DNA from: Bacteroidales bacterium
GTDB taxonomy: Bacteria > Bacteroidota > Bacteroidia > Bacteroidales > P3
Length of the DNA: 64,000 nucleotides
Direction: 5' to 3'
NCBI GenBank assembly: GCA_017522105.1
Contig: JAFXAA010000016.1
Coordinates: 1-64,000, forward strand
In this document: positions 10,916-54,212 of the stretch, one piece after another
Numbering within the stretch: the first letter of the stretch is position 1
Layout of the letters: the number at the start of each line of letters is the position of its first letter
Translations under genes and position numbers: made by a program
The notes under the pieces: generated by a model
Seen by the model: only the letters and a program-made list of their open reading frames with translations
Told to the model about the DNA's origin: nothing
Databases searched by the model: none

Positions 10916-10989
10916 GGCCCCGTAGTTCAGCTGAATAGAACGTCGGATTCCGGTTCCGAAAGTCGTGGGTTTGAATCCCGCCGGGGTCA
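10916..10989 (+). tRNA. tRNA-Arg (anticodon CCG)
   Basis: The 74-base sequence folds as a cloverleaf: acceptor arms GGCCCCG and CGGGGTC, D stem GTTC/GAAC, anticodon stem TCGGA/TCCGA with loop TTCCGGT (anticodon CCG), and T stem GTGGG/CCCGC with loop TTTGAAT. CCA is not encoded. The 3' part is the prophage attachment site; the phage attP copy restores the gene, so the tRNA is still complete. Confidence 0.95.
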
Positions 10990-10990
10990 C
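10963..10990 (+). other. attL core (28 bp)
   Basis: This 28-base sequence, from TCGTGGGTTT to CGGGGTCAC inside tRNA-Arg, is repeated exactly at 54185-54212. Flanking bases differ on both sides. Confidence 0.93.
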
Positions 10991-11102: not shown

Positions 11103-12266
11103 ATGCCTTCAAGTCATCTACACGAAATCCAAACCTGGCTCCCTGCCGTAGTCAAAGACCTGCCCTCCTATGGGGTTGTGGTGGAGTATTATGTGCTTGA
11201 CCCCATAGATGGGAAGATGTTGCGGAAACGTGTCCGGCTCACAAAGCTTGTGAAGCGTATGCCCTCAAAGCGGCAGCGCCTACTCGCGGCCCAACAGGTG
11301 GCAGACAATCTGAATGCGAAGCTTCGCGGCGGCTGGAGTCCGCTTCATGCGACGGAGGATAGCCGGTTGTACACTCCTTTGGCTACCTTGCGCGAGAAGT
11401 TCCTGACGGCCAAGGGCGCGGAAGGATGCAGGGCCACCACACTCACACAGTACGGCAGCATCACCGACATCTGGCTCCGCTGGTGTGAGGATAACGGCCT
11501 TGCCGACCGATACAGCGGCACCTTCCTCCGACCCCAGGCTGTGCGCTACATGGATGACGTGCTGGCCCAGGGCAACCGTCACCGAAGCTATAACAACACT
11601 GTGAAGGTGATGAGGGCTTTCTTCCAATGGGCTGTAGAACACTGCTATGCTAAAGAAAATCCGTTTATCGGAATGAAAACCTTGAAGAAAGAGCCGAAAA
11701 TCCGCACTCTGGTACCAGCGGAAGCGCGGAAGAAAGTAGCGGCTCATTATGCTGCCAAACGTCCGGCCATGAATATTGTCTGCCAGCTCGTCTATTCCTC
11801 GGCCATACGCCCGGCAGAAATACTACAAATCAAGCTCAAACACATTCACCTCGACCAGCACTATATTGTCATTCCGGCCGACAATGCCAAAAACCACAAA
11901 GAGAGGTGTGCCACTTTGACACCCTCTCTTGATGGGCTGCTATCTCCCATTTTGGCAAAATACAAAAACCTTGATTTATACCTATTTGGCAGAAATGAAA
12001 ATTTGGATCCAGACACCGTGCCGGTGACTAAGTCCTATTTTCAGAAATCATGGGAGAGGATGCGCAAGGCCACAGGTTTGCCAAAGGAGATGCAGCTTTA
12101 CAGCCTCCGCGACACAGGCCTCACCGACTTGCTGCATGCCGGCGTGGACCAGCTGTCAGTGCAGCACCACGCCGATCATAGCAGCTTGTCAATCCAAAAC
12201 ATCTATACCGACCACTTCGACCCTGGCCTGAATGACAGAATTTACCACAATGCCCCTGTCTTTTAG
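11103..12266 (+). CDS. phage tyrosine recombinase (integrase)
   Basis: This 387-residue integrase catalyses recombination between attP and the tRNA-Arg attB. The N-terminal part (about 90-185) is the SAM-like core-binding domain. The catalytic domain shows Arg236 (SAIRPAEI), Arg336 in YSLRDTG (with Tyr333 where His is usual), His359 (ADHSS) and the nucleophile Tyr368 (NIYTDHF). It begins 113 bases after the tRNA. Its stop codon overlaps that of the convergent tail gene. Confidence 0.93.
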   Translation: MPSSHLHEIQTWLPAVVKDLPSYGVVVEYYVLDPIDGKMLRKRVRLTKLVKRMPSKRQRLLAAQQVADNLNAKLRGGWSPLHATEDSRLYTPLATLREKFLTAKGAEGCRATTLTQYGSITDIWLRWCEDNGLADRYSGTFLRPQAVRYMDDVLAQGNRHRSYNNTVKVMRAFFQWAVEHCYAKENPFIGMKTLKKEPKIRTLVPAEARKKVAAHYAAKRPAMNIVCQLVYSSAIRPAEILQIKLKHIHLDQHYIVIPADNAKNHKERCATLTPSLDGLLSPILAKYKNLDLYLFGRNENLDPDTVPVTKSYFQKSWERMRKATGLPKEMQLYSLRDTGLTDLLHAGVDQLSVQHHADHSSLSIQNIYTDHFDPGLNDRIYHNAPVF

Positions 12267-19391: not shown

Positions 19392-22300
19392 CTACAACAT
19401 GGCGTGTTCGCGCAGGAACTTTTCGTTATTCTCAAAGTCTTCCATTGTCTGACGGCTGATGACGGCCTGTCTGTTGCGTGGGTCTTTCTCATACTTCACC
19501 AGCTCGGCCATGAGTTTCACCAGCTCGTGGCTGTCGGTACCTACGGAGGCTGCTGTCGGGTGTTCCCAGACGGCGGCGGCCGACTGCTGAGTCATGCCGT
19601 GGCTTCGGCCTATCTGCCCGGCTGCAGCCGTGGCCGCTGGCATATCGAGCGCCGCCATGGGGATGCTGGATAGGGCGCGACGGTTGCCCCGCTGGTAGGC
19701 TTCGAGTGCTGAGATCATCGGAGCCGCCTGCGGGTCTTTCAAAAGCTGGTTAGAGGCCACCCATTCGGGGCCAGCCTCACCGGCTTTGTAAACCGTTTCG
19801 CGCTCCACATAGCCACCCTTTGCGTATGGCTTTGGCTCGTTATATATGGCGGCGATTTGCAGGGCAGTGTTGGCTGCAACAAGTGCTGTCTCTGCTATAT
19901 GTTGGGCCACGGTTCCCTTGCTCTCCCACACGCGGAGGATAGCCAGGGCGGCCGATATCGTTGCTTCGGATATGGAGTAGGCTTTGTTTCTCTCCCATAT
20001 CTCCGCATTAAGTTCGTCCTCCCTCTTCTTATAGTCCTCATCAAGCTGCTCTTTCTGCTCGTTGTATTCCTCCTCTGAAATCAGCCCCTGCTCCAGCTGG
20101 TCATCCAGCAGCTTAACGCTGTTTTCCTTCTCTTCTTCCAGCTCCTGGATGCGGCTTTGTGCCATGTTGTTAAGCAAGGTGTTGAGGTTGCCCCATATTT
20201 CCATGGCCGCGCTGGAGAACTTTTCAATGCCGACAATCCAGCGGTCGATAGCCTTGCCGAAGGCATCCTTTTTCGCCGCGTCTTGTGCTTCCTTATTGAG
20301 CCGGTCAAGCTCCTCTTTTTCCTTCTTGATGCCTTTGGCATTGGCTTCGTGCTCCTCTATTTGCCTGTCGAGGTCGTTAATCAGTTGCTCGTTATAGTCA
20401 TTCTCGGCATCGGCTGTGTCGATGGCACTGTTTCGTTGCTCTGTCAGTCTTTGAAGCACTTCTGCTTCTGCCTCGCCGCGTTGCCGGATGTCTTGCTCCT
20501 GCTCCTCGTATTTCGCGCTGATGCTTTCGAGGGCGCGGCCATACTGCTCGAAGGCTTTTTCATCGAATAGCCATCCGTAGCCTTTGCCGCGCATTTCCTC
20601 AACCTTGCCCTGTGTCGCTTCGCTCCACTGGCTCTCATCGTTGTAGAGAGGCTTGGATTTCTGCTTCTTTTTGTCGGTGATGCCATGATACACGTTATTG
20701 GAGAACTCGCGGCGCAGCTGCTGGTAGGCTACTATGGTTGCCCGGATGGCGGCGAGATTGTCTTTGTTTTCTTGGATTTCTTTCTTCAGGGCGTTAATGA
20801 CAGCCTCATCCTTGGCCACGGCGAGTTTCTTTTCCAGCCGCTTAATCTCTTCCTCCTCGATATGGCGGGCATCCTCTTCGGCGGCGGCAATACTGTCATC
20901 TATGGCCCTGATTTGTTCCAGCAACTTACGCTCGGCCTCCTCTATCTTGTTGAGGTATTCGTTATCATTGGAGCCTTTGAGCTGCCGTCTCATTTTCTCC
21001 AATTCTTCTCTTTGCTTCTTGATGTACTGTGAAATCTTGGAGCGTTCCATGGCCGCCGCCGCCGCATTCACCTGGTCGATGAGTTTTTGCTTTTGCTCCT
21101 CTGTAGCACCGACAGACTCCTCAATGTCTTTAATCATCTGGTCGCGTTTGTTGCGGATTTCGTCGCGCAGCTTCAGCAACCCGGATTCGGCCTTGGTGTT
21201 GAAGTCCGCAATCATACGCAATGCACGTTCTTTGACGTGTTCCCATTTCTTTACCTCTTTTTCGTCGAAGCCGTCGGGAGTGGTTACAGGTTTTTTTGTT
21301 TTGTTTTTGGGTTCTTTCTTTATGGCTGCCTCTAAAGCAGCTTGGTACCTGTAGAGGTATATTAGGTTTTCTTTCGCGTTCCTTGCGGTCTCCTGAGCGC
21401 TCTCTGTCTGTATGTCCTTGTTATCCTCCCAAAGTTTCTTTTGTAGTTTGATGGTGTTGTTGAGTGACTGCAATTCATGTTGTAATTCTTCCAAGGATTT
21501 TCCGTCAAAATCAAATTCATCTTTTTTTGATGGCTTCAGCGCGGCTTTAAACTCATTGACCGTTCTCTCAGTATTCTTATATTTATTCTCCAATTCCTCT
21601 AGTTCCCTTTCTGGAACCATACCCATATACACACCCTCTCCAGCCTCCGTTGAACTTTGTTGGTAATAATGAAATGTCGCCCCTATATCCTTGAGTCTTT
21701 TATTGATATTCTCCAACGCTTTGTCCGCAGATATAGCCCCATCCGTTATACTCTGTAATTCTTCACCAATAATCTCCTGCGCCCGACCCATTACTGACGA
21801 AGATAGACTTCCTCCGCCTGTTCCTTCAAGACCTTTCATTAAATTTCTCAAAGTGCTTGCCGTCTTCTCACCAAGCTCTCCGTACGCTTCGGCTGTCTTC
21901 TCAGCATACACCCTGTCGAATGCACTCTGTCTGGCTGCTTTCGAGAGGTCTTTGTAGGCGGCCTCAATGTTGCGGATGGCTCCTGTCTCGTCCTCATGCA
22001 GGGCAATAATCTCCGGATATTCCTGCTTCAACTGGTTCAATGCAGAAAGATACTCGGAACTTCCTTCTTTTGCATCCCGCAGTTGGTCCACAAGGACTTT
22101 TACCTTGCCTTCCGCCTCACCGGCGGCACGGCCAGCCTCTTTGATGGACTGACTCAGCTTCCATGCGGAGCTATTCTTTACAATGCTGACCGTTAGGGCA
22201 GCGATTGTGGTCAATGCCGTGATAACAAGGCCCCACGGTGTGGAGGCAAAGGCTGCTTTCTGCGCCTTTACTGCCGCCGTGTGGGCCTCGGTTGCTACGG

Positions 22301-23966
22301 TAGCCTGTTTTGTTTTCAATGTTTCCAGGTCTCTCACCCTCTCCTGTGCAAGCATCTTTCTGGTCAGGCCGTCGTAGTCGTACATCTCCACCTTCATCGT
22401 GGCGGTTTTCTTCTCCTCGGCAAGTTCAGCTTTCAACACCGCCAGACGTTCTTTCTCCTCGGCAGCGGTCTTTTTCAGCATCTTGGCCGTCAGCACGTCT
22501 TCGTGGTGAGCCTTTAGTTTCTTGATGCCGAGCATAGAGGTGAGCGTCTTGATGAGTTTGCCGTCGGCTGCAAGATTCAGCAGCTTCACGCGCGCCCAAT
22601 TCGCCATGAGGGCGATGAGTCCGGGCAGGATGGCCTTATTCTCCTTAACAAGCTGCACGAAGCCAGCCACGCCCTTCATCAGGACGGTGCCGGACTTTTG
22701 TAGGTGGATAAGTACAGGGTAAAGCTCGTTTCCGAGTTCGATGCGTACCTCTTCAAAGCGTTTCTTCGCTTTCTCGGCCTTGGCTTGCATCGTCTCGTTC
22801 TTTGTGTTAAACTCGTTGATAACGCTGTTTCCGGTGGTCAGTTCCCGGTTGGCGATAGCTTGTGCCTCGGACACTTTGTCGAGGCTGCTGGCCATGGAAG
22901 AGATAGCTGCTGCCGCGCGTTGGCCGTCGAGGCCCATATCCTTGAACACCGGCACGAGGGCGGTGTAACCGCCCATCTCGTTGAAGCCTTCCAGCACTTT
23001 CTTGATGGCGGCGTTCATATCCGTTTCCATGAGCTGCTTAAACTCTTCCAGCGGCATCTTCGCGGCGCGGACAAACTCCTGAGGCTTCTTAATCATCTGG
23101 CCGATGAGGCGTTGGAAAGCCGTAGCCGACATTTCGAGCTTCTGCATATCCTGATCTAACGCGGAAGCGTAGCCCAGGATTTGGTCGGCTGACAGTCCGG
23201 CTTGTGTCGCCACGCCGCCGAGTCGGCCGAGGAACTCCACCAGGTAGTTCTCGTTAGCCGTGGAGGACTGTCCCAGCATGTTGATAGCCGAGCCAATGGC
23301 CAGCATCTGCTTCTCGATGTCGCCGCTGTTCTCTGCCAGCTGGTGTGTGCTTTTAGCGTACACCTCCGACAGCTTGCCAATGGTCACCATAGCGCCGTCG
23401 CCCAGCACGTCGCCCAGGGCGATATTGATTTTGTCGGCTGCCGACACGAAGCCCGCCACGGCCTCCTCGCTGTTGATACCGAGCTTACCAGCCTCGTATG
23501 CCAGCTTATTCAGTTCCTCGCGGCTGGTCCTGGTATCTATCTTTTTGAAAGCCTCGTTGAGCTTTTCCACTTGCTCATGGGTGAGGCCGGTGGTCTTCAT
23601 CACGTCGGCATAGATATCATCGAGGGCGGCGGCATCCTTGGCGAGGTCTTTCACCTTGCCAATGCCGAGGTCAATCATCTGTAAGGCAGACTGAAAGCCC
23701 ATCAGGACGTTGGCGGCCTCGGCGACGCGCTCCGTCGTGCTCTTCCACTCCTGGTTGAGGCTGTGAGTCGCCGCCCGCTGCTGATGGATGATATTCTCGA
23801 TTTCGCGGATTTTCAACCCTGTCTGCACATATTCCTCCGTGCCGATAGTCAACTGTTTCTGTTGATTTTTCAACTTTTTCAGTTCAGCTTCGAGGCTGGC
23901 GAGGGTGCTTTTTATCTCCGTGCCGTTGATATAGACGGTAACTTTTCGGTTGAGGTTTTTAGCCAT
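19392..23966 (-). CDS. phage tail tape measure protein
   Basis: At 1524 residues this is the longest phage gene; its length sets tail length. The N-terminal part (about 85-350) is a TP901-type tape measure core, with blocks such as DDIYADVMKTTGLTHEQVE and LAYEAGKLGINSEEAVAGF. Hydrophobic stretches follow near 430-455 and 580-600. Long Lys/Glu-rich coiled coils fill about 740-1330. The DNA around 21300-21900 is unusually A+T-rich, which hints at exchange of an internal segment. Confidence 0.9.
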   Translation of the reverse strand: MAKNLNRKVTVYINGTEIKSTLASLEAELKKLKNQQKQLTIGTEEYVQTGLKIREIENIIHQQRAATHSLNQEWKSTTERVAEAANVLMGFQSALQMIDLGIGKVKDLAKDAAALDDIYADVMKTTGLTHEQVEKLNEAFKKIDTRTSREELNKLAYEAGKLGINSEEAVAGFVSAADKINIALGDVLGDGAMVTIGKLSEVYAKSTHQLAENSGDIEKQMLAIGSAINMLGQSSTANENYLVEFLGRLGGVATQAGLSADQILGYASALDQDMQKLEMSATAFQRLIGQMIKKPQEFVRAAKMPLEEFKQLMETDMNAAIKKVLEGFNEMGGYTALVPVFKDMGLDGQRAAAAISSMASSLDKVSEAQAIANRELTTGNSVINEFNTKNETMQAKAEKAKKRFEEVRIELGNELYPVLIHLQKSGTVLMKGVAGFVQLVKENKAILPGLIALMANWARVKLLNLAADGKLIKTLTSMLGIKKLKAHHEDVLTAKMLKKTAAEEKERLAVLKAELAEEKKTATMKVEMYDYDGLTRKMLAQERVRDLETLKTKQATVATEAHTAAVKAQKAAFASTPWGLVITALTTIAALTVSIVKNSSAWKLSQSIKEAGRAAGEAEGKVKVLVDQLRDAKEGSSEYLSALNQLKQEYPEIIALHEDETGAIRNIEAAYKDLSKAARQSAFDRVYAEKTAEAYGELGEKTASTLRNLMKGLEGTGGGSLSSSVMGRAQEIIGEELQSITDGAISADKALENINKRLKDIGATFHYYQQSSTEAGEGVYMGMVPERELEELENKYKNTERTVNEFKAALKPSKKDEFDFDGKSLEELQHELQSLNNTIKLQKKLWEDNKDIQTESAQETARNAKENLIYLYRYQAALEAAIKKEPKNKTKKPVTTPDGFDEKEVKKWEHVKERALRMIADFNTKAESGLLKLRDEIRNKRDQMIKDIEESVGATEEQKQKLIDQVNAAAAAMERSKISQYIKKQREELEKMRRQLKGSNDNEYLNKIEEAERKLLEQIRAIDDSIAAAEEDARHIEEEEIKRLEKKLAVAKDEAVINALKKEIQENKDNLAAIRATIVAYQQLRREFSNNVYHGITDKKKQKSKPLYNDESQWSEATQGKVEEMRGKGYGWLFDEKAFEQYGRALESISAKYEEQEQDIRQRGEAEAEVLQRLTEQRNSAIDTADAENDYNEQLINDLDRQIEEHEANAKGIKKEKEELDRLNKEAQDAAKKDAFGKAIDRWIVGIEKFSSAAMEIWGNLNTLLNNMAQSRIQELEEEKENSVKLLDDQLEQGLISEEEYNEQKEQLDEDYKKREDELNAEIWERNKAYSISEATISAALAILRVWESKGTVAQHIAETALVAANTALQIAAIYNEPKPYAKGGYVERETVYKAGEAGPEWVASNQLLKDPQAAPMISALEAYQRGNRRALSSIPMAALDMPAATAAAGQIGRSHGMTQQSAAAVWEHPTAASVGTDSHELVKLMAELVKYEKDPRNRQAVISRQTMEDFENNEKFLREHAML

Positions 23967-24840: not shown

Positions 24841-25268
24841 AGTGTGTTGGGGATTCCGTATTCGGCGCAGTCGCGTTCCACCATAGCCTTGATGGCCATG
24901 CGGTCGGCGAGGAAGGCGAGGTAGCCTTCCTTGGCCGATGCCGGCAGCAGCTCCTCGTTGGCGGCGTTGTAGTCGTTGACCAGCTTTTGCTCCACGTCGG
25001 TGGGGTACTTGTGCGTCAGCAATGTCTCGATGATGTGATTCTGCGTCTTCGGCGCGGTCATCACCAGCGAGTTGTGGCGGTACTTGGTCACCGTAGCGGT
25101 GTGGGGTTCCTCTTCCTCTTCGGCGGGGTCCACAGTCACCTCTTCGGTGAAGGACTCCGTGCCGTAGTTGTAGATGAAACCGCCCTTGCCGTCGTTGAGG
25201 TCGGCAATGGTCTCGGGCATGGTGTCGGACACCAGCCCTTCATGCAGATTGATGATGTTTTTTTCCAT
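24837..25268 (-). CDS. phage protein, unknown, downstream of the reverse transcriptase
   Basis: A 143-residue protein with an acidic stretch (DPAEEEEE near 47-54). It overlaps the end of the reverse transcriptase gene by 29 bases. It does not look like the small basic helical accessory protein (Avd) of diversity-generating retroelements. It may instead belong to the tail block. Confidence 0.5.
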   Translation of the reverse strand: MEKNIINLHEGLVSDTMPETIADLNDGKGGFIYNYGTESFTEEVTVDPAEEEEEPHTATVTKYRHNSLVMTAPKTQNHIIETLLTHKYPTDVEQKLVNDYNAANEELLPASAKEGYLAFLADRMAIKAMVERDCAEYGIPNTL

Positions 25269-26325
25269 TGTTTAATAAGATTTTGTTAATGATTGATTCC
25301 TTGTGTTGTGGGCTGCAATGAGTCAGCCAGCCGTACTCCGAAGGGTAGGCGTGTTTGATGTCGGCTTCACACTGCAGGTCGTACATCTTGCGAGTACGTT
25401 TCAGCTTCTCGTAGAAGCGGTAGAGTATGGTCTTGCGCAGCCTTATGTCGTGCGGGGAGATACGGAAGCCGACGTGGTCGAGGTCGCGGGCGGCGAGGGG
25501 GAACACTTGCCAATTGGGGTTTATCTCCAAGTGATCATGTGTTGCCAGGTGCAACGCCGCCCTGGTGAAAATCTCATGCAGCCGGGCTTTGTCGTTACCC
25601 AGAATGACGATGTTGTCCATATAGACATAGAGATAATGGACGTGCAGCATCTCCAACAGGAAATGCTCGAAGTCGGTGAGGTTGAAATTGCCGTACATCT
25701 GGCTTGTGTAGCGGCCTATCGGCACACCCACCGGCAGGCCGTTACAGTCGACAATCAAGTCCATTATGCGCAGCATTTTCGGGTCGCCGATTTTCCGGCG
25801 ATACTTCCATTTCAGCCTGTCGTGGTCAACATTGTCATAATACTTATGGATATCCATTATAAGGGCGTAGCGAGTCCCTTCCGGGTCGCGCTGGATGGCG
25901 GCCACGATGTCATTCATGCAGCCGTGGATGCCGCGCCCTTTGATGCAGGAATAGGTATGGGCTATAAACGTCTGCATCAAGATAGGCTCCACAACGCTCA
26001 CCACGCAATGGTCAATGATACGGTCGGGGTCGTATGGCGGTATCTGCAATATACGCTCCTTCGGCTCAAAGATTCTGCGCTTGCGCAGTGGCCCAGGCAC
26101 ATACTTCTCATCATGCAGCAACCAATAGAGCCGGTCGACATTCTCCGAAAAATTCTCGTTGAACTTGATGACGGCCTTATTGCGGTGCTTGCGCTGCTGT
26201 GAGCGGTGTATGCAATGCAGAAGATTGTCCTGGTCGTACAGGTACTGATAGATATGGCGCACCCTCTTCGTCTTCTCGTAGAAGAAGCCGCAATCTTCAA
26301 AGTCACTGTACATATAATTGGCCAT
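25240..26325 (-). CDS. diversity-generating retroelement reverse transcriptase
   Basis: The 361-residue enzyme is a DGR-type reverse transcriptase. It copies the template RNA into cDNA while misincorporating opposite adenines. Visible motifs are RILQIPPYDPDRIIDHCVV (finger region), motif A MDIHKYYDNVDH with catalytic Asp158, the DGR-type GVPIGRYTSQMYGN, and motif C at 235-238, which reads YMDN instead of YxDD: Asp237 is kept but the second Asp is Asn238. The gene starts 128 bases after the template repeat in the order variable protein, template, reverse transcriptase. It could not be a group II intron protein: no maturase or endonuclease domain is present. Confidence 0.93.
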   Translation of the reverse strand: MANYMYSDFEDCGFFYEKTKRVRHIYQYLYDQDNLLHCIHRSQQRKHRNKAVIKFNENFSENVDRLYWLLHDEKYVPGPLRKRRIFEPKERILQIPPYDPDRIIDHCVVSVVEPILMQTFIAHTYSCIKGRGIHGCMNDIVAAIQRDPEGTRYALIMDIHKYYDNVDHDRLKWKYRRKIGDPKMLRIMDLIVDCNGLPVGVPIGRYTSQMYGNFNLTDFEHFLLEMLHVHYLYVYMDNIVILGNDKARLHEIFTRAALHLATHDHLEINPNWQVFPLAARDLDHVGFRISPHDIRLRKTILYRFYEKLKRTRKMYDLQCEADIKHAYPSEYGWLTHCSPQHKESIINKILLNNGKKHHQSA

Positions 26326-26453
26326 ACTCTGTTTTTGTGCCGAATATTTTTTGAGGTGCCTTGCCTATAGCTACTACAACTCTTTATATTCTATTTTATC
26401 TGTTTCACCAAGGGGTGAGGTTGCACCCACATAAATATTTATTTCACATCTTA

Positions 26454-26577
26454 TCGGTATAGGCGGGCCCCGATGTTCGCATTCGAATTCGCGGGACGGT
26501 TATTCGCATTCAGATAGCCGAAGCCCGCATTCGCTCCGTTATTCGCATTACCACCGAGCAAAGCAGCGAACCAGCCC
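26454..26577 (-). repeat. DGR template repeat (TR)
   Basis: This 124-base segment, read on the minus strand, matches the 3' end of the variable protein gene (26696-26819). There are 21 differences; 20 fall on template adenines (11 A to G, 5 A to C, 4 A to T) out of 26 adenines in the template. The single other change (26562 against 26804) is a silent T to C near the 5' edge. The template is rich in AAY codons, which allow the widest amino acid range when mutated. Confidence 0.95.
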
Positions 26578-26640
26578 CTTGTGGGTGTAACCTTTGTTTT
26601 CATTTTTCGTTCTACTTTGATTCTCGAAAGCGGAAGGGTG

Positions 26641-26657
26641 GCGGCGCCGCGCGCCGC
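26641..26657 (-). other. GC-rich hairpin between variable and template repeats
   Basis: Arms GCGGCGC and GCGCCGC surround CGC. The hairpin lies about 40 bases downstream of the end of the variable repeat on the minus strand. Some retroelements of this class need a hairpin or cruciform just after the variable repeat for efficient homing; whether this one serves so is inferred. Confidence 0.5.
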
Positions 26658-26689
26658 GCACCGCATTCCGCATAGCTTCGCCTCGTGTC

Positions 26690-28321
26690 TTAATTTCGGC
26701 ACAGGCGGGCCCCGACGGGCGCATCCGAATACGCGGGACGGCGACGCGCACCCAGAAAGCCGAAGCCCGCATTCGCTCCGCCAGACGCAACACCACCGAG
26801 CAAGGCAGCGAACCAGCCCGTAGAGGAGCCGTGGTAGTAGTAGTCACCGACACCGGCGGTGGCACCTACGCCAGCTCCGCCCTGCACCATCGGCAGCGAC
26901 AGGCCATTTTCGGCCATGCTTTCGCGGGCCAGGTAGCCGTCGGTCATCGGCATGGTGGCGATAAGGGTGTAGCCGTGGCTTGCGCCGTTACTCTCCGCGT
27001 CGGTGTCGCCTGGCGTGAAGTAGTTGGCGGGGTTGTCGCACCAGTAGGCCTTGAAGGACACGCCGTCATTGTAGGCCAGGAGGTCGTCGCAGTTGGCCCA
27101 GATGTAGCCGATAGGCAGCTCCACGCCGAACACGCAGCCGCACTTGATGGTCTTTTCGGTGCCGTTGGCCATCTCCAGCTTGTAGGTCACATAGCCGGTG
27201 TTGTCGCCGAGCGGTGCCGTCACGCCGTTGGGGATGAAAGGCTCGTAAGCGACGGCACCCCAATTCTGCCACTCGGACGAGGTCAGCTTCTCTGTGCTGC
27301 CCTCACCGAAGGCGGTGACGTTCTGAATGTCGTAGTTGAGGTACTTGCAGCGGGCACCCCAAGCCAGCTCATTCAGCACATGGAAGGAGCCGATGTGGAG
27401 TCTTTCGTCGCTTGCGGTGATGCTGTGGGCGGTGTTCACGGCGTTACAGGCTGTGCGGAACTCCGTCCGTGTCATGCCTGTGCGGCACATGCCGAGTTCC
27501 GAGTGGAAGGTCTCATCGTCCGTGCTGCCGGTGACGTTGCCGCCACGGCAAGCCTCGGCGAGGGTGTGCCAGTCAGCGTCAGCCACAAGGCCCTCGTTAC
27601 CCTCCAACGAGCTGTCGAAGGCACCGAAGTAGGGAGTGCTGTAGTTGATGGTACCGGCGGCGTTCTGCACGACGTGGCGCAGGATGGGCGACTCGTCGCC
27701 GCTGCTGGTCTGCATGTATGCCATGTCAGCCCATTTCAGCAGGCAGTTCGACACCATGCCGTTCTGCACCAGCGCACTGTTGGCGACCGTCGTGCCGGTG
27801 TACTTGGAGGCCATGAACTTCGAGATCACCATGCGGGGGATGAGCGTGAAGCCCGGAAGCTCGAAGTCCGAGTAGAGGCGGTAGCGGTCTCCGTCCTGGT
27901 ACTCGATACGGAGGTAGTGTTCGGGAATCTCCACCATGACGTTGCCGTCCTTGCCGGTGAGGTCTGCCGGTACCGTGCCGCCCTCTTTGTAGCGGCTGTC
28001 GTTTTTGTCAAGGTAATACTTGACGGAGCCGTCGGGATTCTCCACAAAGGAGCGGATGCGCTCCCACCACGGCTGGGCGGTGGGTGTCATCAGTTCGGGG
28101 TTGACGGCTTCGAGTTCCTGACTGATGGAGCTGCGCCAATTCTTCTGGCAGATGCCATAGAACGGCTTGCTGGTCATCAAGAACGCCTGGAGGATGACAT
28201 CCGACTGGTCCACCAGCACCGTTTGGCCATTGTCCTTTCGGACAGCCACGACTTTCACATTGCCAGCGTCGCCGGTATACAACGGCAGAAGCTTGGCTCT
28301 TTTTACGTTAAACTGTGTCAT
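26690..28321 (-). CDS. DGR variable protein, tail-tip / receptor-binding candidate
   Basis: This 543-residue phage protein ends in a C-type-lectin-like domain whose last 42 residues (from WFAALLGG to RLCR) are the variable repeat product. Residues that differ from the template translation are mostly at template Asn codons: N becomes V, S, G, G, R, R, Y, D or P, Y becomes F or C, and I becomes V. The N-terminal part (MTQFNVKRAKLLPLYTG) is probably the virion anchor; the middle carries GADTDAESNGASHGYT-like lectin-fold segments. It sits in the tail block beside a coiled-coil fibre gene, so diversification most likely changes which surface molecule the phage binds. Confidence 0.9.
   Translation of the reverse strand: MTQFNVKRAKLLPLYTGDAGNVKVVAVRKDNGQTVLVDQSDVILQAFLMTSKPFYGICQKNWRSSISQELEAVNPELMTPTAQPWWERIRSFVENPDGSVKYYLDKNDSRYKEGGTVPADLTGKDGNVMVEIPEHYLRIEYQDGDRYRLYSDFELPGFTLIPRMVISKFMASKYTGTTVANSALVQNGMVSNCLLKWADMAYMQTSSGDESPILRHVVQNAAGTINYSTPYFGAFDSSLEGNEGLVADADWHTLAEACRGGNVTGSTDDETFHSELGMCRTGMTRTEFRTACNAVNTAHSITASDERLHIGSFHVLNELAWGARCKYLNYDIQNVTAFGEGSTEKLTSSEWQNWGAVAYEPFIPNGVTAPLGDNTGYVTYKLEMANGTEKTIKCGCVFGVELPIGYIWANCDDLLAYNDGVSFKAYWCDNPANYFTPGDTDAESNGASHGYTLIATMPMTDGYLARESMAENGLSLPMVQGGAGVGATAGVGDYYYHGSSTGWFAALLGGVASGGANAGFGFLGARRRPAYSDAPVGARLCRN
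26696..26819 (-). repeat. DGR variable repeat (VR)
   Basis: Homologous to the template at 26454-26577 and forming the 3' end of the variable protein gene; the stop codon at 26690-26692 follows after one more codon. A GC-rich common block (TCGGGGCCCGCCT on the minus strand) near its 3' end is the likely start region for mutagenic homing. Confidence 0.95.
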
Positions 28322-29037: not shown

Positions 29038-29817
29038 TTAATCAAATACCAGAGTGGCGACAGCATCGAGGCCTTTGCCTTCCTTGATGTTCTGGATAAT
29101 ATCGTTAGTCTTTTCGCGTGTCTGCTCGAGGTGTTTCTTCATGCCTGAGCTGTTATTACCCACCTCTGTCTCTAGTGTATTCACCTTTTGCACGAGGCCG
29201 GAATCTTTGCCGCCGACCGTTGTCTTGAGGTTTTGTACGTCGCTGCTGAGTGAGGAGCATTGAGAAGCCGCGTTGGTGGCTGTCGATGCAGCCGTTTGAG
29301 CCTGTCCCACTTTTTCCTGCATGGAGTCGATGAGTCCCAGCCTCTCGCTGGTGTCGGCCACGCGGCCTTGCTCCAGCGACTCGACGCGGGCTTTATAGGG
29401 TGTCAGTCCGTCGATGAGGGCACGGTCTTCCGTGCGATGGCCTTCCAGTGTTTCGACGCGGGCCTTATAGGGTGTCAGGCCGTCGATAAGCTCGCGGTCT
29501 TCCGTGCGATGGCCTTCCAGCACCACGATGCGAGGGCCGTGTGCCTCGCAGCCGTTCACGCGCTGGGAGAATTGAGCAATGGCATCCAGCGTTTCGCTGT
29601 CCAGCGACAGCTCCAGGTCAGACTGTGACAGGGAGCCTTCCAGCACATGGAGGTTGATCCTGGGGCGGTTGATGATTTTGTTATAGTCAATCTTGCCGTC
29701 CGTGATGCAGTTGTCGAGGGCACCTGTGCGCTCGTTGAAAGCGACAATCAGATTATTGATTATCTCCACCATCTGCCCGAAAGTCATTCCCTGTTGTATT
29801 GTCGGTATAGCACTCAT
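29038..29817 (-). CDS. coiled-coil tail-fibre-like protein with tandem repeats
   Basis: A 259-residue protein with a globular N-terminus (about 1-60), two consecutive 24-residue repeats (LEGHRTEDR followed by LIDGLTPYKARVE) at residues 100-147, and heptad-like coiled coil to residue 245. This is the architecture of a trimeric fibre shaft. It ends upstream of the structural paralogue and of the retroelement variable protein. Start and upstream stop overlap by four bases. Confidence 0.65.
   Translation of the reverse strand: MSAIPTIQQGMTFGQMVEIINNLIVAFNERTGALDNCITDGKIDYNKIINRPRINLHVLEGSLSQSDLELSLDSETLDAIAQFSQRVNGCEAHGPRIVVLEGHRTEDRELIDGLTPYKARVETLEGHRTEDRALIDGLTPYKARVESLEQGRVADTSERLGLIDSMQEKVGQAQTAASTATNAASQCSSLSSDVQNLKTTVGGKDSGLVQKVNTLETEVGNNSSGMKKHLEQTREKTNDIIQNIKEGKGLDAVATLVFD
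29377..29520 (-). repeat. 72-base tandem repeat inside the fibre gene
   Basis: Two in-frame 72-base units (29449-29520 and 29377-29448) encode the 24-residue repeat of the fibre-like protein. Confidence 0.85.
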
Positions 29818-32568: not shown

Positions 32569-33135
32569 CTATCTGTCTGAAAATTTGATGATTTTTCCGT
32601 TATTCATCACTAGCTTACCCCACTTGATGCTGTCGAGGCGGCGCAGCCACCCTTTGAGGAATTTCTTTTGTGTAGGCTTGGCTTCCACGATGCGACGGAA
32701 GAACGCCTCGCGTTCTTTCTTGATCTCGTTGAAGAAAGCCTGGTGGTCTGTGGCGTTGAGTGCCGCGAGGGTCTTGGGACCTACCACGCCATCGGCAGTC
32801 ACGCCGAGCATCCGCTGGGGGATGACGATGCCGTGTTTTCCGCTGCCCCATACCCAATCCACGAGGATGTTGGCCAGCGACTGACTCTCAATCTGGTCAG
32901 CCTTCCAGCGGTTCCAATAGTGGGGACGGAGCACCGCGTCCACGGCCTCCGCGTCGGAGATAAGCTTCAGGTCGGAAACGTCTATGTCGCCGTCGCCGTC
33001 CTTGTCATAGCCCACCTTACGCCAGGTGGCGAGAGTAACCCCTTTGTTTGTGGCACCGCCCGCGTCGTCGGGGTCATTCACGAAGCCTCCCTCGAAGGAG
33101 AGGATAAAAGGTGCCAATTTCATCACGTCTGCCAT
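32569..33135 (-). CDS. phage endolysin, glycoside hydrolase family 108
   Basis: This 188-residue enzyme cleaves the glycan strands of peptidoglycan at lysis. The family signature [21 protein letters not shown] begins at residue 14 with the catalytic Glu15. A C-terminal peptidoglycan-binding part ([17 protein letters not shown], near 109-125) follows. An insert, [15 protein letters not shown], resembles a calcium-binding dockerin or EF-hand loop. It has no signal peptide, so a holin is needed for export. Confidence 0.9.
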
Positions 33136-33935: not shown

Positions 33936-34829
33936 ATGGAAAAAAGAAATCTTTATCAAGAGGTAACGGACAGAGTTCTCAACGAGTTAAAGAATGGTGT
34001 CATTCCCTGGGCGAAGCCTTGGCGGGGTGGTGTCGCCGTCAGCCATACCACCGGCGGGGCATACACCTTTCTCAATCAAATGCTCATCAGTTTCAGCTCC
34101 ACCGCTTCGGTAGTGGGAGGTGAATATCTCACCTTCAAGCAAGTAAAGAAAGAAGGCGGCAATGTTCGCAAGGGTGAGAAGTCCGCGCTCATCATGTTCT
34201 ACTGCAAAGACTACAGCACCAAGGAGAAAGACGAGGACGGCGAGGAAATGACAGTCATACATGAGTACGACCGCCCCATCTTGAAAGCCTATCATGTTTT
34301 CGAGGTCAGCCAATGCGAAGGTATCGAGCGGCGGCACACGGCCAAGGCCCTCGCCGAGGGTGGCGAGGTTTTGGAGGTGTCGGACCGAGCCGAAGCTGCC
34401 GCCATGGCCTATCTTGATGGTGCCGGCATCCCCTTATTGCAGCGTATCGGCGACACGGCAGCCTACAGCTGCAGCGAGGACAAAATCGTCATGCCGAGCC
34501 GGGAGCAGTTCGACAGCGTGGCGCGTTATTATTCCACGTTATTCCATGAGATGACGCACAGCACAGGAGCCGAGAAGCGTTTGAAGCGTGACATGTCAGG
34601 CCGTTTCGGGTCGAAAAAGTATGCCCGCGAGGAGTTAGTCGCCGAGATGGGAGCCGCCTATCTGTCGGCCATCCTCGGCACTGCCGATGACGACAGCCTG
34701 AAAGCTTCGGCCAGCTACATCGAGAATTGGAGCAAGGCGCTCACGGAGGACAATGCGCTGGTGGTCTATGCTGCCAGCAGGGCGCAGAGAGCCGCCGAGT
34801 ACATCATGAGTTACAGCGAAAGCAAATAG
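33936..34829 (+). CDS. ArdC-like antirestriction protein (ssDNA-binding plus zincin domain)
   Basis: The 297-residue protein has an N-terminal ArdC-type domain (LYQEVTDRVLNELKNGVIPWAKPW, then LTFKQVKKEGGNVRKGEKS) and a C-terminal metallopeptidase domain with H204-E205-M206-T207-H208. ArdC proteins protect incoming single-stranded DNA from host restriction. It is on the strand opposite to most phage genes, in the accessory island governed by the palindromic operator. Confidence 0.85.
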   Translation: MEKRNLYQEVTDRVLNELKNGVIPWAKPWRGGVAVSHTTGGAYTFLNQMLISFSSTASVVGGEYLTFKQVKKEGGNVRKGEKSALIMFYCKDYSTKEKDEDGEEMTVIHEYDRPILKAYHVFEVSQCEGIERRHTAKALAEGGEVLEVSDRAEAAAMAYLDGAGIPLLQRIGDTAAYSCSEDKIVMPSREQFDSVARYYSTLFHEMTHSTGAEKRLKRDMSGRFGSKKYAREELVAEMGAAYLSAILGTADDDSLKASASYIENWSKALTEDNALVVYAASRAQRAAEYIMSYSESK

Positions 34830-42497: not shown

Positions 42498-43532
42498 TTA
42501 CTCTTCCACGCCGAGTTCGTGGCAGGCCTCCTTGTAGGTTTCGGAGTTCTTCCAGCTCTCGTCGTTGTTCTCGACCTTGGTGTCCGGGCCTTGCACCGAA
42601 GTCGGCGCGGCGGGGATTTTGTCGATAAAAGATTTCAGCTCCTGGGCGCGTTCCTCGGCCTTGGTCTTGGCGGCTTCGGCCTCGGCCTTGGCTGTCTCGG
42701 CAGTACGCTTTGCCTCCTCGGCCTGTTGCTTGGCGGTCTCGGCGGCTTCCTTCTGCTGTTTGAGGGTGTCAATCTCGGACTGCTTTGCCTCGAGAGCGTT
42801 GTTAATCTTTTTGAGGGTTTCGTCGTCCATCAGGACGGCACCCTCCTTGGTGGCATCCAGTTCCTGGATTGCCAGCAGCGCGGCGAGGGCCGCGAAAGTC
42901 ATGATGCTTTTCTTCATGGGTCTGTTATTTAAGTGAAACATATTTTGGATTTTGCTTTTCAGGTAGTCGCTGTCGGCGGTGGTGGCCGTTATCTCCTCTG
43001 TTGCGAAGCCGTACTGCATACACTCTTCGACGGTGAGCCATGCGCCGTCGCCGTTGTTGCGTTCCATCAGTGCCTCTATGTCCTCCAGCTTTGAGCCTGT
43101 GCGGTCGGTGTAGATGGCAGCCAGTCGGCCGTTGATGGCGCGTTGCTCCTCCAGTACCTCTTCCAGCACGTTTTCGTTGCCGACAACGCCGCTCCAGCAT
43201 TTGTGTATGAGGAAGAGAGCGTAACGGCTCATCTTCCTCTTGTCGCCGCTCATGGCGATGATCGTGGCCGCCGAGGCGCAACGTCCGTAGCACTCGGTGG
43301 TCACGCGGTCGCCCATTGCCACCAGCAGCTCGTAGATGGCCAGTGCCTCGTCCACGTCGCCGCCCAGGGAGTTGATTTTTACGATGACGTTCTTTTTGGT
43401 GGCTGCGATGTTACCCAGCTGACGCTTCACGCTGTCGAGGGTTACGCCCTCTCCCCACCAGCTGCCGCCGATTTCGCCCTGTATCTCCACAGTCACGTCG
43501 GCGGGGTTTTCTATGATATTAAATACTTTCAT
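42498..43532 (-). CDS. ClpP-like prohead protease fused to a scaffold domain
   Basis: The first about 190 residues are a ClpP/S14-type serine protease: Ser87 in GRCASAAT and His110 in LFLIHKCW are the expected nucleophile and base. From about 225 to 310 a Lys/Glu/Ala coiled coil (EAKQSEIDTLKQQKEAAETA and so on) is typical of an internal scaffold. Such fusions build and then clear the procapsid. It is the first gene of the capsid operon, with a TAACTTTG box upstream. Confidence 0.88.
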   Translation of the reverse strand: MKVFNIIENPADVTVEIQGEIGGSWWGEGVTLDSVKRQLGNIAATKKNVIVKINSLGGDVDEALAIYELLVAMGDRVTTECYGRCASAATIIAMSGDKRKMSRYALFLIHKCWSGVVGNENVLEEVLEEQRAINGRLAAIYTDRTGSKLEDIEALMERNNGDGAWLTVEECMQYGFATEEITATTADSDYLKSKIQNMFHLNNRPMKKSIMTFAALAALLAIQELDATKEGAVLMDDETLKKINNALEAKQSEIDTLKQQKEAAETAKQQAEEAKRTAETAKAEAEAAKTKAEERAQELKSFIDKIPAAPTSVQGPDTKVENNDESWKNSETYKEACHELGVEE

Positions 43533-54184: not shown

Positions 54185-54212
54185 TCGTGGGTTTGAATCC
54201 CGCCGGGGTCAC
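54185..54212 (+). other. attR core (28 bp, displaced tRNA 3' end)
   Basis: Exact copy of 10963-10990. It is the original 3' end of the chromosomal tRNA-Arg, now cut off from its 5' part by the prophage. Confidence 0.93.

Follow-up and report, generated by a model that had tools for sequence, protein, structure and literature searches.

A diversity-generating retroelement in a Bacteroidales tRNA-Arg prophage and P4, a candidate accessory protein of its reverse transcriptase

The 64,000-nt stretch analysed here (Bacteroidales bacterium GCA_017522105.1, contig JAFXAA010000016.1, positions 1–64,000), hereafter the window, carries a diversity-generating retroelement (DGR) within a prophage. The whole cassette lies on the minus strand and runs in the order target tail gene (28321–26690, with the variable repeat, VR, at its end), template repeat (TR), reverse transcriptase (RT), and two small genes that we call P3 and P4. 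The target (26690–28321) encodes a 543 amino acid (aa) protein assigned from its translation, an alignment with 8 relatives and a match to phrog_5302, "tail protein" (E 8.4e-61). The VR (26696–26819, 124 bp) stops 6 nt short of the end of this open reading frame (ORF), stop codon counted, and the TR (26454–26577) is also 124 bp. The RT (25240–26325, 361 aa) is followed by P3 (24837–25268, 143 aa, phrog_11557), whose start overlaps the RT end by 29 nt, and P3 in turn overlaps the unannotated P4 (24466–24840, 124 aa) by 4 nt. We propose, with a probability of roughly 0.8, that the window holds a DGR in a tRNA-Arg prophage with a TR held by a helix, an RT that misreads adenines, and P4 as an accessory subunit of that RT. 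A first-pass annotation, made from the letters alone, had called the locus a complete DGR of a known class; the class holds, and "complete" needs qualifying, as no Avd was found in the window's cassette and neither P4 nor the helix flanking the TR had been mentioned.

Aligned on the minus strand, which is the coding strand, TR and VR differ at 21 sites, 20 of them at the 26 template adenines and one a T-to-C change (Fisher p 7.6e-17 for the adenine bias). The first-pass annotation had the same coordinates, length and counts, and had non-adenine positions otherwise conserved; alignment and a direct-repeat search of the window, which also recovered the pair, agree with it, the lone exception being the T-to-C site. 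It named no strand, and its adenine claim is correct for the minus strand, these sites reading T on the plus strand. Two of the 20 adenine differences (26458/26700 and 26460/26702) fall at the end of the repeats, where the TR reads TATACCG (26454–26461) and the VR TGTGCCG (26696–26703, minus strand). The VR 3′ end reads TGTGCCG in 13/13 loci compared, while the TR there reads TATACCG or TTTACCG. We take the VR end to be a putative initiation of mutagenic homing (IMH) site, and the two differences are probably not random products but a fixed IMH/IMH*-like difference, which would leave 18 diversified adenines. TR and VR are adjacent repeats, as plain duplication of a gene followed by drift or gene conversion would also leave them, but with 20 of 21 changes at adenines, and with relatives (below) in which identical TRs stand beside VRs differing at adenines only, we consider this explanation refuted by the adenine bias and its probability negligible. 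With the TR as blast query of its own genome no remote VRs were found; the matches were the TR, the VR and one 15-bp match elsewhere. A translated TR peptide was also considered and rejected as not conserved: an ATG stands in frame in the TR of the window, whereas no start codon of the type looked for was found in L050 or L052.

Related loci allowed the repeats to be followed beyond the window. A first scan of 20 loci gave a candidate TR/VR pair in 16, adenine-biased in 16/16, and in the eight closest pairs 133/135 changes were at template adenines. Of the 79 loci in a wider scan, 55 gave an adenine-biased pair and 24 gave none, some of the latter lying on short contigs. The two scans extend repeats by a score that favours adenine mismatches, so that pair ends lean to adenine; locus-to-locus comparisons of VRs depend less on this score. 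Bacteroides phage Versailles and a prophage of B. acidifaciens DSM 15896 are identical in the RT (1188/1188 nt), in the target upstream of the VR (1200/1200 nt) and in the TR (115/115), and their VRs differ at 19 sites, 19 of which are at template adenines. Further VR pairs gave adenine/non-adenine counts of 15/1 (L060/L091, 16 differences), 14/2 (L055/L056), 16/2 (L059/L060), 16/1 (L059/L091), 20/7 (L061/L063) and 16/6 (L104/L105), with L099/L100 left unclassified. The check that had been suggested for this locus, that related genomes should have a constant TR and a VR changing at template adenines, thus came out as expected in the relatives, whose VRs show recent use of the DGR. Three yak metagenome-assembled genomes with differing titles, one of them Opitutales, carry the same DGR on contigs of 23.0–23.3 kb (L078, L079, L080) and perhaps represent one phage binned three times.

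The window RT matches PF00078 and phrog_1423, its best match among solved structures is the DGR RT of BPP-1 (8ub7, E 6.6e-30), and the DGR-group motif [I/L/V]GxxxSQ is present as IGRYTSQ. Together with the adenine-type TR/VR, this bears out the earlier claim of a DGR-type RT following the repeats. The window RT has YMDN where the BPP-1 RT has YMDD, and its catalytic box is therefore not of the YxDD form. YMDN is common to a six-member clade that includes the window RT, and in our RT tree, a quick one whose support is limited to the SH-like approximate likelihood ratio test (SH-aLRT) and which has several long branches and some distant rows that may not be DGR RTs, this clade is 100% supported, its YMDD neighbour is L054 (92%), and Asn at the box needs at least four changes. 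With the second Asp of the box replaced by Asn, a minority state seen in 14 of the 139 distinct RTs gathered, the RT might be crippled and the VR a relic of past activity. This is very unlikely given that two members of the same clade, L051 and L053, whose RTs agree at 1079/1086 nt, share one TR sequence while their VRs have 15 differences, 15 at adenines, and that the RT reading frames are intact in 6/6 members. Because clade members diversify at adenines, we did not treat YMDN as excluding DGR membership. No paper on a YMDN box with a DGR was found among the open-licence papers searched. A separate RT group (L101, L102, L103, L106) has YIDN; an adenine-biased TR/VR was present in L101 and L106, and none was found in L102 and L103.

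The flanks of the TR can pair with each other. In 17 chosen sequences they pair over 13 positions (26580–26592 as the 5′ strand and 26419–26431 as the 3′ strand, both on the minus strand), followed directly by a small hairpin (26405–26418, minus strand). Changes on both sides were found in 11/13 pairs of the long helix and in 1/5 pairs of the hairpin, which is the weaker of the two. Over helix and hairpin, 84.9% of cells were paired, a figure flattered by columns having been picked by eye from the 17 sequences; shuffling gave 66.7% and sliding no more than 49.8%. Changes on both sides were seen in 59 cells, compared with 19.0 in shuffles. Compared with 200 shuffles, the duplex energies of the TR flanks were at p ≤ 0.05 in 29/55 loci (0.005 in the window) and above it in 26/55, including L061–L063, L073 and L108. 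The helix covaries at the level of sequence, and it may serve to hold the TR RNA as a loop, as discussed below.

P3 was suspected of being a DGR accessory since it comes after the RT and co-occurs with it. A P3-seeded search, from which 80 loci of 88 were kept, placed an RT in 71, none in the flanks of 8, and met a cut contig in 1; "without RT" was judged within 4-kb flanks, and some of the 8 may be near-copies. The 8/80 loci without RT ruled P3 out as an accessory. In these loci P3 lies directly after the tail protein, as in Porphyromonas phage005a, and we regard it as a companion of the target tail protein. P3 is in one frame with the RT in L066, L068, L166, L167 and L169.

P4 behaves differently in the same set: it was found in 65/71 P3 loci with an RT and in 0/8 without one. 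In the six RT-bearing P3 loci without P4 (L198, L208, L229, L233, L243, L249) the contig breaks off within or next to the module, at a point where P4 might be expected. Across all pooled loci, relatives of P4 were beside or inside the RT gene in 160/162, the remaining 2 being one cut contig seen twice; P4 lay downstream of the RT in 129 loci and upstream of it in 23, shared its reading frame in 8 and had no RT beside it in 2. Many of these loci repeat a contig, so the distinct P4 sequences number 99, and TR/VR pairs were sought only in the first (20) and wider (79) scans, later loci being called DGR by their RT alone. In 21/23 cases the upstream copy follows a target match, a position usually held by avd. 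Among 120 same-genus genomes, 14 had an RT match and 5 had P4, the latter identical to the 5 with the closest RTs. Seeding with P4 gave hits in 8/393 genomes of the order and 5/395 of the phylum, two hit genomes being common to both sets; besides the window's, 11/11 of these matches were beside or inside an RT gene (4 fused), with GxxxSQ seen in 10/11 RTs and one match (L125) being the L065 locus already in the profile. On viral contigs an RT adjoined P4 in 40/41 loci, the exception (L135) being cut; ten of the 41 were already known via their RT, and 31 were absent from the RT scan, 30 of which have an RT while the other is cut. By the pattern used, no GxxxSQ was found in the RTs of L170 and L171.

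P4 sits among structural genes in the window and its neighbour P3 is a bystander, and P4 could likewise be an ordinary tail or lysis-region gene that chances to adjoin the DGR. We consider this unlikely, as P4 is missing from all 8 P3 loci lacking an RT, stands beside RTs in L069–L072, L074 and L075, where neither P3 nor a target homologue was detectable, and occurs both upstream of the RT and in one reading frame with it. Linkage and fusion of this kind point to P4 as probably an alternative accessory subunit of the DGR RT.

Searches for a known family gave little. Models of Avd (bAvd, PF22296/NF033474) did not match P4 in Pfam (32 members) or NCBIfam, nor P3, while a Vibrio phage Avd used as a control scored 106 bits, and HRDC (PF00570) matched neither P3 nor P4. 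In PHROGs, P4 falls mainly in two families of unknown function. Twelve Pfam families each matched 1/32 aligned P4 members (best E 0.0043), none convincingly, NCBIfam gave nothing for the four members tried, and the P4 profile against PDB sequences reached a best E of 0.16. An AlphaFold2 model built from 32 sequences (pLDDT 85.4, pTM 0.76) has strands at 30–41, 44–52 and 58–63, a helix at 66–74, strands at 81–90 and 94–100, and a helix at 108–122, a b-b-b-a-b-b-a order that we take to be that of OB folds. No report of P4 was found among the open-licence papers searched, and those among them that bring together OB folds and DGRs appear to be on other subjects.

The nearest known systems share parts of this arrangement. 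Versailles (ON453897) has target, VR, TR, RT, P3 and P4 in the same order, with an RT 44% identical to the window's; its box is YMDD, and its module lies after the tape measure and before lysis genes, whereas that of the window lies before the tape measure. BPP-1 shares the RT family, the IGxxxSQ motif, adenine-specific TR/VR mismatches, a tail gene whose 3′ end holds the VR and an IMH/IMH*-type difference; in the window's cassette no Avd was found and P4 is there instead, and the box is YMDN for YMDD. Same-genus DGRs of the HRDC type (L026, L029, L031–L033) have DGR-type RTs and, in 4/5, an adenine-biased TR/VR (no pair was found in L026), but carry an HRDC accessory (PF00570) and no detectable P4. 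Two DGR accessory types, P4 and HRDC, thus meet in one host genus.

Thirteen phage loci were scanned (L047, L250–L261) and P4 was found only in that of Bacteroides phage p00, the hankyphage (L257), where the RT ends in a P4 domain (E 2.4e-27), one of the 8 fusions noted above. Hankyphage resembles the window in its RT with a P4 domain, its Bacteroidales host and its tail target, and differs in that P4 is fused, that the RT is 30.9% identical over 88%, and in a Mu-like transposase (described in PMC6199706). The hankyphage P4 domain matches 31 phage records, with jmh42, jmh43, jmh47 and jmh51 at 100% identity, and according to PMC12135933 the VR varies beyond background at template adenines in jmh42, jmh47 and jmh51, and in capsid DNA of jmh43.

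Several points weigh against our interpretation. The activity of the window's own DGR is inferred from its relatives rather than from this prophage. P4 has no family name, Pfam, NCBIfam and PDB sequences gave it no convincing match, and it is called OB-like from the order of its strands in a model. Its profile was built from RT-adjoining proteins, and the hits are therefore not a random sample. Among the pooled loci, 48 with an RT have no detectable P4, and none was found in the crAss-like loci checked (L047, L250–L256), some of whose RTs are split by stops, lowering sensitivity. The RT tails of crAss LMMB and cr55_1, considered as divergent P4, scored 2.9 and 4.3 bits, less than the top scores of 4.7 and 8.7 among 200 shuffles of each, and were rejected at this sensitivity. 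For hankyphage, a figure legend in PMC12135933 labels an Avd, and PMC6199706 describes a small ORF close to the RT as Avd-like on grounds of size and charge. Immediately behind the p00 RT, the ORF at L257:4799–5284 matches DUF4376 at 26.1 bits (cut-off 25) and not Avd, though it is perhaps not the ORF of PMC6199706, and the published label by size may need a check. Finally, S23-type proteins elsewhere in the genome could act in trans.

Under that last alternative, an Avd-like four-helix protein would serve the RT from elsewhere in the host genome and P4 would do something else. A search of the genome with PF05635, rather than with the bAvd model, found three such S23-type proteins over the cut-off on other contigs (C7, C26, C27) and a fourth below it (C14). 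None lies on the contig of the prophage, S23-type proteins are common outside DGRs, and the fusions of P4 to the RT suggest that P4 itself is the partner, making this alternative quite unlikely.

Parts of the published record on accessory proteins also bear on P4. PMC10053308 names Avd, HRDC and MSL as DGR accessory proteins and describes Avd as a protein that most DGRs encode and that retrohoming requires, and PMC12386605 gives AVD genes in only two of that study's zeta crAss-like phages. ORF 23 of B. uniformis phages is called Avd in PMC8143477; P4 of the upstream type had no match among phage records, and hence gives no evidence that this ORF is P4. A word count of the main text of PMC8144416 found neither "accessory" nor "avd".

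The first-pass annotation had placed the DGR in a prophage, and the sequence around it supports this. The prophage spans ~43 kb (10963–54212, no strand assigned) inside a tRNA-Arg gene (10916–10990), bounded by attachment repeats, exact direct copies of 28 bp (10963–10990 and 54185–54212) that copy the 3′ end of the tRNA-Arg, with an adjoining integrase on the plus strand (11103–12266; PF00589, E 9.6e-19; phrog_1). Within it lie a tape measure gene (19392–23966), an endolysin (32569–33135) and a head maturation protease (42498–43532). Among the genes outside it are one for a C25 peptidase and the host gene for PorV, a type IX system protein that fits the Bacteroidales assignment. An ArdC-type anti-restriction gene (33936–34829, plus strand) also lies inside the prophage, and an ORF with weak fibritin matches (29038–29817) contains two 72-bp head-to-tail units (29372–29515) that are 88% alike. 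The earlier claim that the VR forms the C-terminal part of a tail-region protein stands; the lectin-like fold proposed for it was not indicated by any Pfam or PDB sequence match of the target, and the receptor role of the tail protein, like any retargeting of the phage, is putative.

Mutagenic copying in the window, as we picture it, would begin with the TR RNA held as a loop by the helix of its two flanks. The RT would copy this RNA, misreading adenines, and the cDNA would take the place of the VR that ends the tail-protein gene, with the fixed IMH/IMH* difference keeping the TR as donor and the VR as recipient. P4 would act as an accessory subunit of the RT complex in place of the Avd or HRDC proteins of other DGRs, probably binding the RT and either the TR RNA or the cDNA.

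On its own the window's DGR is an ordinary member of its class, and the surprises lie in P4, the bracketing helix and the YMDN box. A broader proposal, on which we are evenly divided, is that P4 founds a further class of DGR accessory in addition to Avd, HRDC and MSL. It would be an OB-fold subunit, standing alone or joined to the RT, that handles helix-bracketed TR RNA, that a large group of DGRs in Bacteroidota phages, hankyphage among them, requires for adenine mutagenesis, and that in the window's clade works with a naturally YMDN RT, perhaps altering metal use or fidelity. P4 would not settle all Avd-less systems, given the crAss-like loci without it. The natural YMDN box bears on which catalytic residues adenine mutagenesis needs, and the helix bracketing the TR is a specific RNA element open to mutation. 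P4 may be the missing helper of many DGRs; if so, an unannotated family found with DGR RTs across much of the RT tree would give Avd-less systems a partner.

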